Below, piece by piece: positions 21,601 to 37,778 of a DNA stretch of 64,000 bases (positions are counted from its first letter, which is position 1; each line of letters begins with the position of its first letter). Location of the stretch: assembly GCA_016182845.1 (NCBI GenBank), contig JACPFT010000004.1, positions 1 to 64,000 on the forward strand, given 5' to 3'. The notes below the pieces were generated by a model, which was not told the origin of the DNA, ran no database searches, and saw only the letters and a list, made by a program, of their open reading frames with translations. The stretch is from Gammaproteobacteria bacterium (GTDB lineage Bacteria; Pseudomonadota; Gammaproteobacteria; Enterobacterales; Permianibacteraceae). The position numbers were made by a program, and so were the translations under genes.

Positions 21601-21660
21601 CCGTAGGTCCCGCTTCAGTGGGACAATCCGTCCTTAGTCCCGCTGAAGCGGGACCTACAC
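21601..21660. repeat. Paired palindromic repeats (GTAGGTCCCGCTTCAG type)
   Basis: Two hairpins of opposite orientation, built from GTAGGTCCCGCTTCAGYGGGAC and its complement. The family recurs at 24166, 27512 and 37722. Confidence 0.8.
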
Positions 21661-23372: not shown

Positions 23373-24155
23373 ATGAAACACATGAAACACTGCCCGACCC
23401 ACGGCCCCTACACCGTGGAGATGCTGGAGCTGGCCGGCAAGACCATCGAACGGCGCTGCCCGCGCTGCGTCACCGACTTCAAGGCCGGGCAAGTCCAGTT
23501 CGCGGTCAGCCAGGAGAAACAGTCCCGCGAGGATCGGATCCGCCAGCTGATAGGCAAGTCCGGCCTGCCCCGGCGTTATATCCAGAAATACGATTTCGAG
23601 ACCTTCAGCTCCGCGACACCAGAGCAGCAGTACGCCCTGCAGATCGCCCAGCAATTCGCCTACGGCTTCGAACAGGCCCTGGAGCACGGCAGCAACCTGC
23701 TGTTCACCGGCCGCTCCGGCACCGGCAAGAACCACCTGGCCACCAGCATCGCCAAGGTCATCATCGAGCAGGGCTATAGCGCCCTGTTCCTGACCACCAT
23801 CAACGCCATGCGCTCCATCAAGGAAACCTTCAGCCAGGATTCCGAGCTGACCGAACGCCAGGTCATCTACCGTCTGGTGCAGGATTTCGACCTCCTGATC
23901 CTCGACGAGGTGGGCATCCAGTTCAAATCCCAGACCGAGGGCATCCTGCTCTTCGACATCCTGAACGGCCGCTACGAGGAGATGAAGCCGACCATCCTCA
24001 TCAGCAACGAGGACTTGGGCCAGCTGCGCCAGACCCTGGGCGAACGCCTGATCGACCGCCTCCTGGAAGACGGCACCCACGTGGAATTCCTCTGGAACAG
24101 CTTCCGCCAGGCCAACCACGGCAACCTGTTCAATCAGCGTTGGGGGCGGAACTGA
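23373..24155 (+). CDS. DnaC-like AAA+ helicase-loader ATPase with N-terminal zinc ribbon
   Basis: 260 residues. An N-terminal Cys/His cluster (C7, H10, C29, C32) forms a likely zinc ribbon. The ATPase core has Walker A GRSGTGKN (113-120) followed by HLA as in E. coli DnaC, Walker B LLILDE (174-179), and LGERLIDRL with the presumed arginine finger. The zinc ribbon plus DnaC core is usual for phage or prophage loaders rather than chromosomal DnaC. IstB of IS21 is a relative, but no transposase lies beside it. It starts 26 bases after ybeD. A role in loading replicative helicase is inference. Confidence 0.82.
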   Translation: MKHMKHCPTHGPYTVEMLELAGKTIERRCPRCVTDFKAGQVQFAVSQEKQSREDRIRQLIGKSGLPRRYIQKYDFETFSSATPEQQYALQIAQQFAYGFEQALEHGSNLLFTGRSGTGKNHLATSIAKVIIEQGYSALFLTTINAMRSIKETFSQDSELTERQVIYRLVQDFDLLILDEVGIQFKSQTEGILLFDILNGRYEEMKPTILISNEDLGQLRQTLGERLIDRLLEDGTHVEFLWNSFRQANHGNLFNQRWGRN

Positions 24156-24165
24156 GAGCCATTTG

Positions 24166-24216
24166 GTAGGTCCCGCTTCAGCGGGACAGGACCTGTCCGA
24201 CTAAAGTCGGACCTAC
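24166..24216. repeat. Paired palindromic repeats (GTAGGTCCCGCTTCAG type)
   Basis: Two hairpin units in opposite orientation lie between the converging DnaC-like gene and the solute-binding protein gene. Confidence 0.8.
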
Positions 24217-24219
24217 GCC

Positions 24220-24984
24220 TTACCGCCCGTCACCTGCCTCCCGAGCTTCCCTTGCCACATCTTCGTAGCCGCGCCCCAGATGGCGCCGGTAGAGCTCCTC
24301 CACCAGACCCTCCGCGAAGAGCTCGTCCAGGGCCTTGCCGTAACGGGCGGCGAGTTCCGCGTGCTCGGGCGTCAGAACCAGGTACATGGGCTGCGCCCCC
24401 AGATAGGGCTTGAGGAAACGCACGCGCGCACCCATCTGGCGGGCGAAGGTCGGGCAGACCAGGCCGTCGCAGAGCGCATAGCGGTAATACTTTTTGCCCA
24501 GGCCCAGGAGCAGTTCCCGTTCGCCGCGCACATCCACGCGCCGCCAGCCGTCGAAGCGGCGCACCACGGGCAGATAGCTGTAACCCAGGACGGCACCCAC
24601 CGGCTGGCCCACCATCAGCTCCCAGCGAAATTCCCGCTCCGCGTCGTCCGCGTGGACCAGGACGCCGATGATGAAGAAGCTGGTGGGCTTACCGGCGGTG
24701 ATGAAACCGGGCATGACCGTGTTGTCGATGACGCCGGCAAATTGCCCGGCCAGGGCCGCCTGTTCGCAGCGCTTCCAAGGCAGGGCAACCAGTTCCACCG
24801 GCTGCTTCATGCGCGCGAAGGCGGCCTGGAGGATGGCATGGCTGATGCCGCCGCTGATCCGACCGTTTGCCGTTTCGGTGAACGGCGGCCATTCCGCGCC
24901 GCATAGGCGGATCGCCTCCCCGGCCCGGGCCGGGGGAACCTGAGCACAACACAGCAGGAACAGGACCAGGAGGCGCAAGCTCAT
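24220..24984 (-). CDS. Periplasmic solute-binding protein, family 3-like
   Basis: 254 residues. The signal peptide (MSLRLLVLFLLCCAQVPPARA) is followed by AEWPPFTETANGRISGGISHAIL, the typical opening of family 3 extracellular binding proteins. It ends with the LVEELYRRHL helix. There is no ABC permease or ATPase gene nearby, so it may work as an orphan sensor or use a permease elsewhere; the ligand cannot be read. The ATG at 24984 is chosen because it begins the signal peptide directly. It is divergent from the cysteine desulfurase fusion. Confidence 0.8.
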   Translation of the reverse strand: MSLRLLVLFLLCCAQVPPARAGEAIRLCGAEWPPFTETANGRISGGISHAILQAAFARMKQPVELVALPWKRCEQAALAGQFAGVIDNTVMPGFITAGKPTSFFIIGVLVHADDAEREFRWELMVGQPVGAVLGYSYLPVVRRFDGWRRVDVRGERELLLGLGKKYYRYALCDGLVCPTFARQMGARVRFLKPYLGAQPMYLVLTPEHAELAARYGKALDELFAEGLVEELYRRHLGRGYEDVAREAREAGDGR

Positions 24985-25028
24985 GGCGGCTCCACAACGA
25001 GGGCATGGGCAGAGTATAGACCTGTGTG

Positions 25029-25068
25029 CCGCCGGGGACAGACCCCGCGCAGGGTCTGCTCTCGGCGG
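25029..25068. repeat. Nested hairpin (CAGACCC...GGGTCTG) upstream of divergent genes
   Basis: The inner stem 25039-25045/25052-25058 (7 bp) sits inside an outer stem CCGCCG/CGGCGG (25029-25034/25063-25068). The core resembles repeats commonly scattered in proteobacterial genomes; it may also fold in the leader of the minus-strand gene. Confidence 0.5.
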
Positions 25069-25084
25069 GTCTCTCCCCTCTTGG

Positions 25085-25125
25085 AATAAGCAGACCATAG
25101 CTTATTGCGCTATTAGCTTAGTGCG
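25085..25125. promoter_or_regulatory. Two adjacent inverted repeats, candidate operators
   Basis: AATAAGC (25085-25091) and GCTTATT (25100-25106) are perfect 7-bp arms. Directly after it GCGCTA...TAGTGC (25107-25124) is a second, imperfect dyad. This AT-rich patch sits between two divergent genes, 76 to 116 bases before the fusion gene start, where a repressor could bind. The regulator is unknown. Confidence 0.4.
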
Positions 25126-25200
25126 AATGGTTATATGCTGGTAAACTGCGCCCTGCGTAAAAAAGCGCAGTCTTCTTCTCGTCTGCTGTCCGGTACCGCC

Positions 25201-27501
25201 ATGCCCTGCTCCTTCCGCGAAATCTATCTCGACGCCAATGCCACCACCCCGGTCCTGCCCGCCGCCGCCGAAGCCGCGCGCGAGGCGATGATGCTCGGAT
25301 TTGGCAATCCCAGCAGCGCCCATTGCACGGGTCTGAAGGCCAAGGCCCTGATGGAATCGGTACGCGCCAAGGCCGCGAAGGTCCTGGGTTCGGGGGCGGG
25401 CAAGCTGCTCTTCGTCAGCGGCGCCACCGAGGGCATCCAGACCGCCGTCTTGTCCGCCCTCTGCGCCCTCAAGGAACGCCGCGAGCGCGGTGAGACCATA
25501 GGCACGGAGCTGCTCTACGGCGCCACCGAGCACAAGGCCGTGCCGGAGACTCTCAAGCACTGGAACCGCCTACTGGGCCTGAATCTGCATGTGCTGGCCA
25601 TCCCCGTGGCCGAGAACGGCCGCCACGATCTGGACTTCCTGAGCCAGCACCTGCCCCAGGCGGCCCTGGTCGCCACCATGGCCGCCAACAACGAGACCGG
25701 GGTGATCTCCGATCTGGCCGCCATCGAAGCCCTGCTGAACGCGCAGCAAAGCCGCGCCTATTGGCTGGTGGACAGCGTGCAGGCCCTGGGCAAGCTGGCG
25801 CTGAACCTGGCCGCGACGCGCATCGACTACGCGCCCTTCTCCGGCCACAAGCTCTATGCCCCCAAGGGCATAGGCCTGCTCTATGTGCGCCAGGGCGCGC
25901 CCTTCACGCCGCTCATGGCCGGCGGCGGCCAGGAGAGCGGCCTGCGCTCCGGGACGGAAAACCTGGCGGGCATGGCCGCCCTGGGCGCCGTGCTCGATGC
26001 CCTACTCTCTGGCCGCGACTTCCAGCCGCGCGCAAGCCTGGAAGCCTACCGGGAGCAGCTGGCCGAGGCCCTGGGCGAGGCCTTCCCGGGTCTCAGCTTC
26101 AACGCGCCCTTCGAGCTGTCCCTGCCCACCACCCTGAATTTCTCCGTGCCCGGCTTCGCCAGCAAGGAACTCCTGGATCTCTTCGACGCGGCACATATCC
26201 GCGTCTCTTCGGGCTCGGCCTGTTCCTCCAACAAGGCCATGCCGAGCTATGTCTTGCAGGCCATGGGTCTGCCGGAATGGCGCGCCGCCTCGGCCGTGCG
26301 CCTGTCCTTCGGCCCGGCGGCGACGCCCGAGTTCATCGCGGCGGCCTGCGCGCGCATCCGCGAGTGCGGCGCGGCACTGCGCCGGAGCTGTCTCATCGCC
26401 TCGGAGCTGGAACCCCTGCCCGGCGACGGCGTGCTGCAACTCACCGCCAACGGCGCCTGCACCTGGCTGGTCAGCGACGCGGCCTCCAAGCGCTGCGTGA
26501 TCATCGATCCCCTGGAAGAGCTGACGGAACGCATCGAAAAATACGTGAGCTGCCAGGGCTTCCAGGTCCTGGCCGTGCTGGACACCCATGGCCATGCCGA
26601 CCATGCCTCGCCGCGCGCCCTGCTGATGGCACGTCTGGACGGCCTGCTGGCCGACTTCGCCCGCGAGACCGATCACCTGGGCTGGCCGCGCCGCCTGGGC
26701 ACGGTGCAGCTGGCCGACGGCCTGTTCGCCCCGGCCATCAGCTTGGGGACCAAGGTCCTGGCGCGCATGCCCCTCCCCGGCCACACCAATGACAGCCTGG
26801 GCTTTTTGCTGGGCGAGCCGGAAGACGGACGCTTAAGCAGCGAACGGGTGCACTTCGCCTTCACCGGCGACGCCATCCTCATCGGCGGCCTGGGCCGCAC
26901 CGACTTCGCCAGCAGCTCGGCGGAATCGCTCTACGCCAGCCTGCATGCCCTGCGCCTCACTATCGCCGCCGACACCCTGCTCTGTCCGGCCCATGACTAC
27001 AACAACCAGTTCGCCACCACCCTCGCCGCCGAAGCCTTGAGCGGCGGCCTACTGGCCAAGGTCCTGGACGAGCATCTGCCCTTGTCCCTGGCCGATTTCG
27101 TCCGCGAGAAGCGCCAGGCCGATGCCCGGATCAACGAGCATGCCGAGGTCCTGCTCTGCGGCGCGGTGGAACACTGCCGCGACCTGACCGACATGCACCT
27201 GAAGCCCGAGGCCCTGGAACGCTTCTTCGCCGAGCATGCCGATGCCCTCCTGGTGGACGTGCGCGAATCCTATGAGCACGCGCTCAGCGGCCAGCCCCTC
27301 AACGGCCTGCCCATGATCAGCATCCCCCTGTCGCGCCTGACCAACGGCCTGGACGGCTGGCTGCACGGCGAGCCGCGCCCCCTGGTGTTCTTCTGCCGCA
27401 GCGGCAACCGCTCGACCCGCGCCGCGGAGACCCTGCGCCGCCTGGGCTATGCCCAGGCCTGGCACCTGGCCGGCGGTTTGGCCCTGGGGCAGGTGCACTA
27501 A
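25201..27501 (+). CDS. Cysteine desulfurase / persulfide dioxygenase-like / rhodanese fusion protein
   Basis: 766 residues with three sulfur-handling domains. Residues 1-395 are a NifS/IscS-type cysteine desulfurase: DANATTP, TEHKAV, PLP lysine K217 in FSGHKLYAPKG, and catalytic C341 in SSGSACSS. Residues about 405-640 are a metallo-beta-lactamase fold of ETHE1 type: H463-G-H465-A-D467-H468, H528, D557 in FTGDAILIGGLGRTDF, and H598. Residues about 670-766 are a rhodanese with C732 in CRSGNRS. All catalytic residues are present. Cysteine sulfur could be mobilised to a persulfide and either transferred or oxidised to sulfite. The ATG at 25201 gives the family N-terminus; an earlier in-frame ATG (25135) is less likely. 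Confidence 0.9.
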   Translation: MPCSFREIYLDANATTPVLPAAAEAAREAMMLGFGNPSSAHCTGLKAKALMESVRAKAAKVLGSGAGKLLFVSGATEGIQTAVLSALCALKERRERGETIGTELLYGATEHKAVPETLKHWNRLLGLNLHVLAIPVAENGRHDLDFLSQHLPQAALVATMAANNETGVISDLAAIEALLNAQQSRAYWLVDSVQALGKLALNLAATRIDYAPFSGHKLYAPKGIGLLYVRQGAPFTPLMAGGGQESGLRSGTENLAGMAALGAVLDALLSGRDFQPRASLEAYREQLAEALGEAFPGLSFNAPFELSLPTTLNFSVPGFASKELLDLFDAAHIRVSSGSACSSNKAMPSYVLQAMGLPEWRAASAVRLSFGPAATPEFIAAACARIRECGAALRRSCLIASELEPLPGDGVLQLTANGACTWLVSDAASKRCVIIDPLEELTERIEKYVSCQGFQVLAVLDTHGHADHASPRALLMARLDGLLADFARETDHLGWPRRLGTVQLADGLFAPAISLGTKVLARMPLPGHTNDSLGFLLGEPEDGRLSSERVHFAFTGDAILIGGLGRTDFASSSAESLYASLHALRLTIAADTLLCPAHDYNNQFATTLAAEALSGGLLAKVLDEHLPLSLADFVREKRQADARINEHAEVLLCGAVEHCRDLTDMHLKPEALERFFAEHADALLVDVRESYEHALSGQPLNGLPMISIPLSRLTNGLDGWLHGEPRPLVFFCRSGNRSTRAAETLRRLGYAQAWHLAGGLALGQVH

Positions 27502-27511
27502 CAACCATCAC

Positions 27512-27573
27512 TGTCCGGCTGAAGCCGGACCTACATGGAAGCGGAGCTCCGTAGGTCCGACTTCAGTCGGACT
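27512..27573. repeat. Paired palindromic repeats (GTCCGGCTGAAGCCGGAC type)
   Basis: Hairpins at 27513-27534 and 27549-27572 carry the GTAGGTCC border and a variable stem. Same family as 21601, 24166 and 37722. Confidence 0.8.
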
Positions 27574-27695
27574 CCCGCCCGGTTGGTCGCAGATTTGTCC
27601 CCATCCCCCGCCCTCCCCCACCAGGGTTCACAAGGCGGGCCGGGCCGATTTCAGGCATAATCGCGCCCTGATTTTTCCCCGGGTCTGCGCGCACC

Positions 27696-28373
27696 ATGAG
27701 CGATCTCCGCGACACCATCACCGTCCGCCAGCTGGGCCGCCAGGACTATGTCCCGGTCTGGCAGGCCATGTCCGCCTATACCGACACGCGCGGCCCGGAT
27801 GCCCCGGACGAATTCTGGTTCGTCGAGCACGAGCGCGTCTTCACCCAGGGCCAGGCCGGCAAGGCCGAGCACCTGCTCTTCCCCGGCGATATCCCGGTGG
27901 TGCAGGTGGATAGAGGCGGCCAGGTGACATACCACGGCCCGGGCCAGCAGGTCGTCTACTTCCTGCTCGATCTGCGCCGTAAGAGCCTGGGCGTGCGCGA
28001 GCTCGTCTCGAAGATCGAACAGGCCATCGTCGATACCCTGAAGCACTACGGCATAGCCGGCGCGCCCCGCGCCGACGCTCCGGGCGTTTATGTGGCCGAC
28101 GGGTCCAAGATCTGCAGCTTGGGCCTGCGCATCCGCCGAGGCTGCTCCTTCCACGGCCTGGCCTTCAATATCGGCATGGACCTGGAGCCCTTCTCGCGCA
28201 TCAACCCCTGCGGCTACGCCGGCCTCGCCATGACCCAGCTCAGCGCCCAGGGCGGCCCGGACAGCCTCGCCGCCGTGGAGCCGGTGCTCCTTGCGCAATT
28301 AATGAACAATCTGGGCTACAATACCGCCCTTTCCGCGTCCGGCCTGCCGCAGTTCAGCGGGCTTCAGGAGTAA
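27696..28373 (+). CDS. lipB: Octanoyl-ACP:protein N-octanoyltransferase
   Basis: Moves the octanoyl group from acyl carrier protein to lipoyl domains of 2-oxoacid dehydrogenases and GcvH. 225 residues. [12 protein letters not shown] is the substrate-binding motif. Lys138 in DGSKICSLG and Cys172 in NPCGYAG are the catalytic pair. A CATAAT sequence about 35 bases upstream may be a -10 element. The lipA start follows 3 bases after its stop, so the two lipoylation steps are co-expressed. Confidence 0.97.
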
Positions 28374-37721: not shown

Positions 37722-37778
37722 CCGTAGGTCCCGCTTCAGCGGGACGCCCTGCGCAGTCCGACTGAAGTCGAACCTACA
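37722..37778. repeat. Paired palindromic repeats (GTAGGTCCCGCTTCAG type)
   Basis: Hairpins 37722-37745 and 37755-37777 in opposite orientation, closing the TIR/cyclase unit. Confidence 0.8.

Follow-up and report, generated by a model that had tools for sequence, protein, structure and literature searches.

The 64,000-nucleotide stretch analysed here, called the window (positions 1 to 64,000 of contig JACPFT010000004.1, assembly GCA_016182845.1, from a Gammaproteobacteria bacterium of the Permianibacteraceae), contains a gene that joins a cysteine desulfurase to a persulfide dioxygenase (PDO)-type metallo-beta-lactamase (MBL) domain and a rhodanese domain in one chain, and that is referred to below as the fusion. 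The gene order around it is ybeD, a DnaC/IstB-like ATPase gene, a gene on the reverse strand with a weak SBP_bac_3 match, the fusion, lipB and lipA.

The three-domain gene and its product

The fusion is a single open reading frame (ORF) of 766 residues, free of internal stops; the longest ORF called mechanically starts at 25135 and has 788 residues. An earlier note on this DNA had read it as a three-domain sulfur enzyme, and the uninterrupted frame and three Pfam domains confirm this. Aminotran_5 (residues 8-377, E = 7e-56, 190 bits) and Lactamase_B (423-582, E = 1e-8) exceeded their gathering cut-offs, and Rhodanese (679-760, E = 2.5e-7) scored 31.5 bits for a cut-off of 22.2, while none of the 23 NCBIfam models matched by the protein reached its cut-off. 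An AlphaFold2 model built from 45 family members had a mean predicted local distance difference test score (pLDDT) of 89.7 and a predicted template modelling score of 0.88. The third-position G+C is even along the whole frame (0.85-0.96), which gives no hint of joined frames; with the same architecture in 86 other loci, an assembly or frame join is ruled out and the sequencing artefact that the note had envisaged is not borne out. The family profile matched 26 PDB sequences at E <= 1e-50. In each of them the best-matching stretch belongs to the desulfurase part, and a solved structure of the complete fusion was therefore not among them.

Table 1. Features of the fusion gene, its product and its immediate surroundings in the window
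Feature	Position	Strand	Basis
Three-domain fusion gene (desulfurase - PDO-type MBL - rhodanese), 766 aa	25201..27501	+	ORF, Pfam, AlphaFold2 model
Class I (NifS/IscS-type) cysteine desulfurase domain, residues 8-377	25222..26331	+	Pfam Aminotran_5, NCBIfam, fold
Lys217, pyridoxal phosphate (PLP) lysine	25849..25851	+	K in 87/87 aligned
Cys341, persulfide-forming cysteine within SSGSACSS	26221..26223	+	C in 87/87 aligned
Cys397, desulfurase-MBL junction	26389..26391	+	Cys in 87/87
PDO/ETHE1-type MBL domain including C-terminal CG motif, about residues 402-655	26404..27165	+	Pfam 423-582; PDO best matches
Cys420, start of MBL domain	26458..26460	+	Cys in 87/87
His463, predicted iron ligand	26587..26589	+	Triad kept in 78/87
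His528, predicted iron ligand	26782-26784	+	Triad kept in 78/87
Asp557, predicted iron ligand	26869-26871	+	Triad kept in 78/87
Rhodanese domain, about residues 664-763	27190..27489	+	Pfam 679-760
Cys732, rhodanese cysteine within CRSGNR	27394..27396	+	C in 87/87 aligned
Divergent neighbour	24220..25098	-	Weak solute-binding protein family 3 match, 23.3 bits vs cut-off 26.4
REP-like palindrome just past 3' end of SBP_bac_3-like neighbour	24195..24216	-	Palindrome search
Two facing REP-like palindromes between fusion and lipB	27513..27572	.	Palindrome search

Conservation was counted in an alignment of 87 proteins, namely that of the window, six relatives from the same order and 80 named loci (given by L numbers). 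The residues listed in the earlier note (K217, C341, H463, H465, D467, H468, H528, D557, H598 and C732) are all present at those numbers. Lys217 and Cys341, which we take from family knowledge to bind PLP and to form the persulfide, respectively, are accompanied by the PLP-stacking His111 in all 87 proteins, in which D191 and Q194 are also invariant. The first half has the fold, the PLP lysine and the SSGSAC loop of the NifS/IscS class I desulfurases. Those enzymes are stand-alone proteins, whereas the C-terminal end of the desulfurase part of the fusion continues into the MBL domain. Among the NCBIfam models, NifS (TIGR03402) scored best for this half, with 269 bits for a cut-off of 530.75, and the IscS, DndA and SufS cut-offs were likewise missed. 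In the fold comparison, NifS, IscS and Nfs1 structures reached Z scores of about 36-41 and selenocysteine lyase 39-40.

A separate desulfurase had been suggested as a point to check, and two were found in the same genome: iscS in an iscR-iscS-iscU-iscA cluster (L002) and a SufS-type desulfurase joined to a SufE domain (L003, 1432-3075). The fusion is therefore not the only desulfurase of this genome, and a role as the sole one in the cell is ruled out. With L003 the genome carries two desulfurase fusions besides iscS; both join a desulfurase to a sulfur acceptor, but the SufS-SufE protein has no oxygenase. The last 50 residues of this IscS contain no cysteine (judged by eye, for this IscS only), in contrast to C383 and C397, conserved in the fusion family.

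The MBL domain is, by sequence, nearer to PDOs than to glyoxalase II. Its matches were BpPRF (1.9e-42), human ETHE1 (hETHE1; 2.7e-28) and human glyoxalase II (3.1e-16). As desulfurase-like folds filled the fold listing of the whole model, the MBL-rhodanese half was folded separately (pLDDT 92.4); PDO, ETHE1 and SdoA entries then gave Z scores of 20.3-22.4 and glyoxalase II/GloB entries 16.4-19.0. The sequence ranking is the stronger evidence for a PDO, because this gap is clear yet not large. The earlier note had listed the full MBL metal set for its PDO-like domain. These residues are indeed present, and the triad corresponds to H79, H135 and D154 of hETHE1, but the same set is common to PDOs and glyoxalase II (PMC4383860) and so is not diagnostic by itself. 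The assignment thus rests on overall similarity together with R566, Y600 and C653. That the domain is instead a thioester hydrolase of the glyoxalase II type, with no oxygenase activity, would fit this shared set and a match to the NCBIfam model GSH_gloB. We consider it highly improbable, as that match (58.7 bits) does not reach its cut-off of 200.8 bits, PDOs score better by both sequence and fold, and the GRTDF, HDY and CG features are PDO-like. The model of the bifunctional Blh protein (NF040641) was not reached either (43 bits, cut-off 625). In the rest of the genome, no other sequence closely matching the MBL part was found (best 29% identity).

According to our alignment, R566, Y600, H598, C653 and D568 correspond to R139, Y173, H171, C224 and D141 of AcPDO, all of which were found to be important, R139 and Y173 being glutathione (GSH) contacts of all PDO types (PMC6060420). 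R566, Y600 and C653 are also the equivalents of hETHE1 R163, Y197 and C247, which, like the iron triad, human ETHE1 and type I PDOs share with the fusion. Among the 78 members with an intact MBL domain, H598 is kept in all, R566 in 77, and Y600 and the type I cysteine C653 in 76 each; column 568 holds Asp in 55 members and Asn in the other 23.

Over both domains the best sequence match was BpPRF of Burkholderia (Paraburkholderia) phytofirmans (PDB 5ve3-5ve5), which has the same MBL domain and one rhodanese domain in the same order and shared first place with other PDOs in the fold comparison. The view that a desulfurase has been fused to a PDO-rhodanese module is upheld by this likeness and by the catalytic residues kept over the 87 proteins (the iron triad in 78). 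BpPRF itself lacks a desulfurase domain and is about 25% identical to this half of the fusion. In the model, the MBL and rhodanese domains are positioned differently relative to each other than in BpPRF (root-mean-square deviation of about 16 over both domains), a difference that may be real or an effect of modelling.

In the rhodanese loop, R733, G735 and R737 are invariant in all 87 proteins. Further conserved cysteines are found at columns 383 and 451 (85/87 each) and, as listed in Table 1, at 397 and 420. We can only guess that C397 and C420 act as a relay where the two parts meet, or bind a metal there. Residue 158 (25672-25674) is Cys in 86 of the 87 members and Ala in the window protein alone.

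Distribution and descent of the family

The fusion recurs across at least three bacterial phyla. A contig scan gave at least 573 relatives of the query, of which the best 80 loci were kept; this is not a census. All 80 hold a long ORF of the family, nine of them with a decayed MBL domain. Their hosts, Burkholderiales among them, include Roseateles, Pelomonas, Variovorax, Mitsuaria, Duganella, Massilia and Acidovorax, as well as Shewanella, Pseudoalteromonas, Thalassotalea, Paraglaciecola, Planctomycetota and Verrucomicrobiota. Within the order of the window organism, 6 of 58 relatives, spread over four families, have a full-length copy. The fusion is also present on three Pseudoalteromonas plasmid records. 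On one plasmid, pTHAF3_a of Pseudoalteromonas sp. THAF3 (L146), a TusA-family sulfurtransferase gene lies two genes ahead of it.

A profile of 45 rows (A2), from which L059, L073, L077 (stop codon), L088 and L099 had been left out of 50, was run against 369 genomes of the class and matched only the window's own genome at E <= 1e-100; as only two candidates per genome were scored, this gives no frequency for the class. When all candidates were scored, eight of nine chosen genomes matched, G008 being the expected negative. A second profile of 44 rows (A3) additionally omitted L028. The counts out of 87 are based on another alignment, in which L028, L059, L073, L077, L088 and L099 are all present.

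In a tree of the 87 rows, the window protein falls in the betaproteobacterial branch with a support of 96 (Shimodaira-Hasegawa-like approximate likelihood ratio test only), although its row is among the long branches of unsure placement; the six relatives of the same order group with Shewanella and allies in the other branch. This distribution makes a transfer of the fusion between the betaproteobacterial and Shewanella-side groups likely.

The nine MBL-decayed members (L028, L059, L073, L077, L082, L088, L092, L099 and L100), each missing at least one iron ligand, come from Duganella, Massilia, Rugamonas, an Oxalobacteraceae metagenome-assembled genome and a second copy in Roseateles toxinivorans. 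As trimmed, they have 681-702 residues, and they keep the desulfurase and rhodanese cysteines (C341 and C732) as well as C397 and C420. Seven form one branch, with L059 and L028 apart, and one to three losses of the MBL site are therefore possible. R. toxinivorans has one intact copy (L027) and one decayed copy (L028). Such naturally decayed proteins offer ready-made controls.

Gene neighbourhoods and proposed function

We propose, with a probability of roughly 0.6, that the fusion is a cysteine-catabolic enzyme that converts L-cysteine and O2 to L-alanine and sulfite within one chain, by way of an internal persulfide. PLP on Lys217 would allow Cys341 to take the sulfur of cysteine as a persulfide, which would move directly, or by way of Cys732 of the rhodanese domain, to the mononuclear iron site of the MBL domain (H463, H528 and D557). 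There it would be oxidised to sulfite, to be exported or used. The route would resemble the PDO pathway of Staphylococcus aureus, except that the persulfide would come from desulfuration of cysteine and not from sulfide:quinone oxidoreductase (SQR), and excess cysteine could therefore be removed without release of H2S. The chemistry at each step, the direction in which sulfur passes from one domain to another and the role in the cell are our inferences.

Taken as a whole, the genes around the fusion speak for a role in cysteine catabolism. The gene calls came from a simple script for ORFs, some of which are false, and the profiles for Lrp and TauE were derived from the very loci they were then run on, which biases them toward those genes. 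A TauE/SafE-family gene adjoins the fusion in 9 of the 80 loci, which belong to three phyla and show four arrangements: ahead of it on the same strand (L035 and L043), after it and facing it (L039, L049 and L068), after it on the same strand (L097), or ahead of it and divergent (L065, L076 and L094). The TauE profile had no match elsewhere within the 80 loci. Pfam confirmed a sulfite exporter TauE/SafE for L035 (140.7 bits) and L065 (83.6 bits), the other seven being assigned by profile similarity.

In 35 of the 80 loci the fusion has a divergent gene of the Lrp/AsnC type at a distance of no more than 400 nt; apart from L081, these loci all belong to the branch of the window protein, which has 46 other members (34 of 46). 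The remaining 12 branch members comprise L071 and L090, with an Lrp gene downstream and on the same strand, respectively, and ten without a match. Other matches beyond this position were found in L035 (at 1.1 kb) and L058 (at 7.5 kb, plus a second domain match of the adjacent ORF). Pfam confirmed the Lrp/AsnC identity for L092 and L040. The Escherichia coli regulator YbaO/CyuR/DecR is a member of the Lrp family. It answers to cysteine and induces yhaO, and a title cited in the same paper states that it controls cysteine detoxification (PMC7373191).

CstB obtains its persulfide from sulfide through SQR and is not known to have a desulfurase domain. In S. aureus, where tauE, cstA, cstB and sqr stand side by side and are all raised upon deletion of cstR, CstB combines a PDO and a rhodanese in one chain with tauE as a neighbour, as seen in the fusion (PMC5480029). 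The pairing with TauE, which echoes the gene company of cstB, and the amino-acid-type regulator are the strongest hints to function beyond the domains themselves.

Several observations weigh against the formation of sulfite from cysteine as the task of the fusion. The S. aureus tauE product is described as a putative sulfonate/thiosulfate effluxer, not as a sulfite exporter (PMC5480029), and CstB yields thiosulfate (PMC9774590). The fusion could accordingly be a controller of sulfane sulfur that delivers mainly thiosulfate or a low-molecular persulfide, made by the rhodanese domain from the sulfite of the PDO and the persulfide of the desulfurase; a rhodanese cysteine kept in all 87 proteins would suit this. 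Sequence cannot separate sulfite from thiosulfate, nothing favours thiosulfate alone, and we regard this product as quite unlikely, ranking it as the second alternative.

The main rival is donation of sulfur for biosynthesis, mainly suggested by the planctomycetes. In seven planctomycete loci (L036, L041, L045, L046, L047, L055 and L061) the fusion lies inside the suf operon, in the order SufB, SufD, fusion, Rieske gene and SufT-like gene, and six of these loci also have SufC ahead of SufB; the assignments are by clusters and were confirmed by family for L036. In that Pirellulaceae suf operon (L036, 3219-11567), SufB, SufC and SufD exceeded NCBIfam cut-offs and the Rieske gene, which follows the fusion, its Pfam cut-off; the SufT-like gene was over the Pfam FeS_assembly_P cut-off and below every NCBIfam cut-off, and a SufR match was under its cut-off. 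A SufD match was found in 38 of 40 genomes (that of L036 and its relatives). Among 30 sufD loci examined, sufD was followed by the fusion in nine (in two at 0.9-1.25 kb) and by a Rieske gene in ten, and 11 had neither within the flank; the nine include the genome of L036 and perhaps others of the seven suf loci, and so are not independent of them.

This placement suggests donation of sulfur to iron-sulfur (Fe-S) assembly: the desulfurase would feed Fe-S or other assembly, the rhodanese would be the carrier and the MBL domain an overflow valve or secondary. The retention of C341 and C732 by all nine MBL-decayed members fits such a role. On the other hand, suf genes adjoin the fusion in only 7 of the 80 loci (by clustering), compared with 9 for TauE and 35 for a divergent Lrp gene, other desulfurase homologues are present in the genome of L036, and the full iron triad is kept in 78 of the 87 proteins. 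We therefore hold donation of sulfur for biosynthesis to be unlikely.

To be set against cysteine catabolism is also that 29 of the 80 loci show no divergent Lrp, TauE or suf genes in the positions stated (80-35-9-7, the sets being disjoint). The Shewanella locus L050, for instance, has an M74 peptidase, a DUF386 and a phosphatase-like gene as neighbours. The window copy has neither TauE nor Lrp beside it, and the nearest Lrp-type genes of its genome lie elsewhere (35% and 28% identity). Oxidation is not always retained, since 9 of the 87 proteins have lost iron ligands, and cysteine is not proved as the substrate, because the first half resembles selenocysteine lyase structures no less than IscS.

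The last objection concerns glutathione. The Arg column of the type I GSH contact was taken as R190 of AcPDO, equivalent to R214 of hETHE1 and to the Arg of the NPR motif found in BpPRF, MxPDO and AtETHE1, 17 residues past the Tyr of HDY. In the fusion family this column (617) is Arg in none of the 78 MBL-intact members (Leu in 61, Phe in 11, others in 6), with an Arg two columns beyond it in four of them, so that here the fusion differs from human ETHE1, the type I PDOs and the NPRL motif of BpPRF. Nor does any of the 78 have a Pro-Lys pair between residues 618 and 653, where the alignment is loose, to match P211-K212 of AcPDO. R214 of hETHE1 is only a possible GSH contact, derived from docking (PMC4383860). 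The type II PDO of Pseudomonas putida has neither R190 nor K212 and relies on other arginines to bind GSH (PMC6060420, PMC12856154). Since type II PDOs bind GSH although these residues are missing from them, an absent R190 equivalent does not in itself mean that GSH is no longer bound. Glutathione synthetase (TIGR01380) was over its cut-off in 6 of 11 fusion genomes, including the planctomycete of L036, and under it in the genomes of L035, L043, L049, L060 and L068, of which only that of L035 has a record titled complete genome; among routes to GSH (the GshF type included) and other thiols, this test covers TIGR01380 alone.

A pocket that keeps the universal residues and lacks the type I anchor may fit a substrate other than free glutathione persulfide, such as a protein-held persulfide. 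A more detailed version of the cysteine-catabolic proposal, tentative and in our view doubtful, would make the fusion a "cysteine burner". Its Cys341 persulfide would pass within the chain to an iron oxygenase whose glutathione pocket is partly lost and which accepts protein-held persulfide, giving sulfite without free H2S or thiol persulfide. In the planctomycete suf operons it might act as a valve joining Fe-S sulfur supply with persulfide disposal, and C397, C420, C383 and C451 might be a relay or metal site joining the halves.

An excess of cysteine is toxic, and the well-known routes by which bacteria dispose of it release H2S. If cysteine catabolism by the fusion is correct, a recurrent single protein would route the sulfur of cysteine straight to sulfite, a new exit for cysteine, and desulfurases, hitherto viewed as sulfur donors for Fe-S clusters and tRNA, would be tied to persulfide oxidation. 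One annotated record of such a protein is named merely "aminotransferase class V-fold PLP-dependent enzyme", and the function is easily overlooked because of this generic name. Two-domain PDO-rhodanese fusions are already known (PMC9774590, PMC7785958). The search for the architecture raised in the earlier note found it recurrent in bacteria, but no description of a desulfurase-PDO-rhodanese chain, let alone a characterised one, was found among the open-licence papers listed, covered mainly by titles and the beginnings of abstracts.

The lip site and its palindromes

The earlier note had pointed to the proximity of lipB and lipA, the product of the latter needing iron-sulfur clusters. The gap between the fusion and lipB (start at 27696) is 194 bases. 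In two genomes of the same family (G001 and G002), ybeD lies directly before lipB, with no fusion, and lipA, lipB and ybeD had no match in the 86 other fusion loci (80 with flanks of up to 8 kb and six with 1.5 kb). The lip neighbourhood of the fusion is thus incidental, and the suggested link to lipoate and LipA is not supported. Because G001 and G002 keep ybeD next to lipB and no other fusion locus has lip genes, the two sets of neighbours were most likely joined by insertion. About 4.1 kb (23373-27501), holding the DnaC/IstB-like ATPase, the weak SBP_bac_3 protein and the fusion, lie between ybeD and lipB. There is no sign that the divergent SBP_bac_3-like neighbour belongs to the fusion system.

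Five palindromes resembling repetitive extragenic palindromic (REP) elements, GTAGGTCCGACTTCAGTCGGAC (up to 3 mismatches; 0 expected), were found in the window, at 21603-21624, 24195-24216, 27513-27534, 27551-27572 and 37756-37777. The region 27500-27600 folds into a strong hairpin (-48.4 kcal/mol, z -5).

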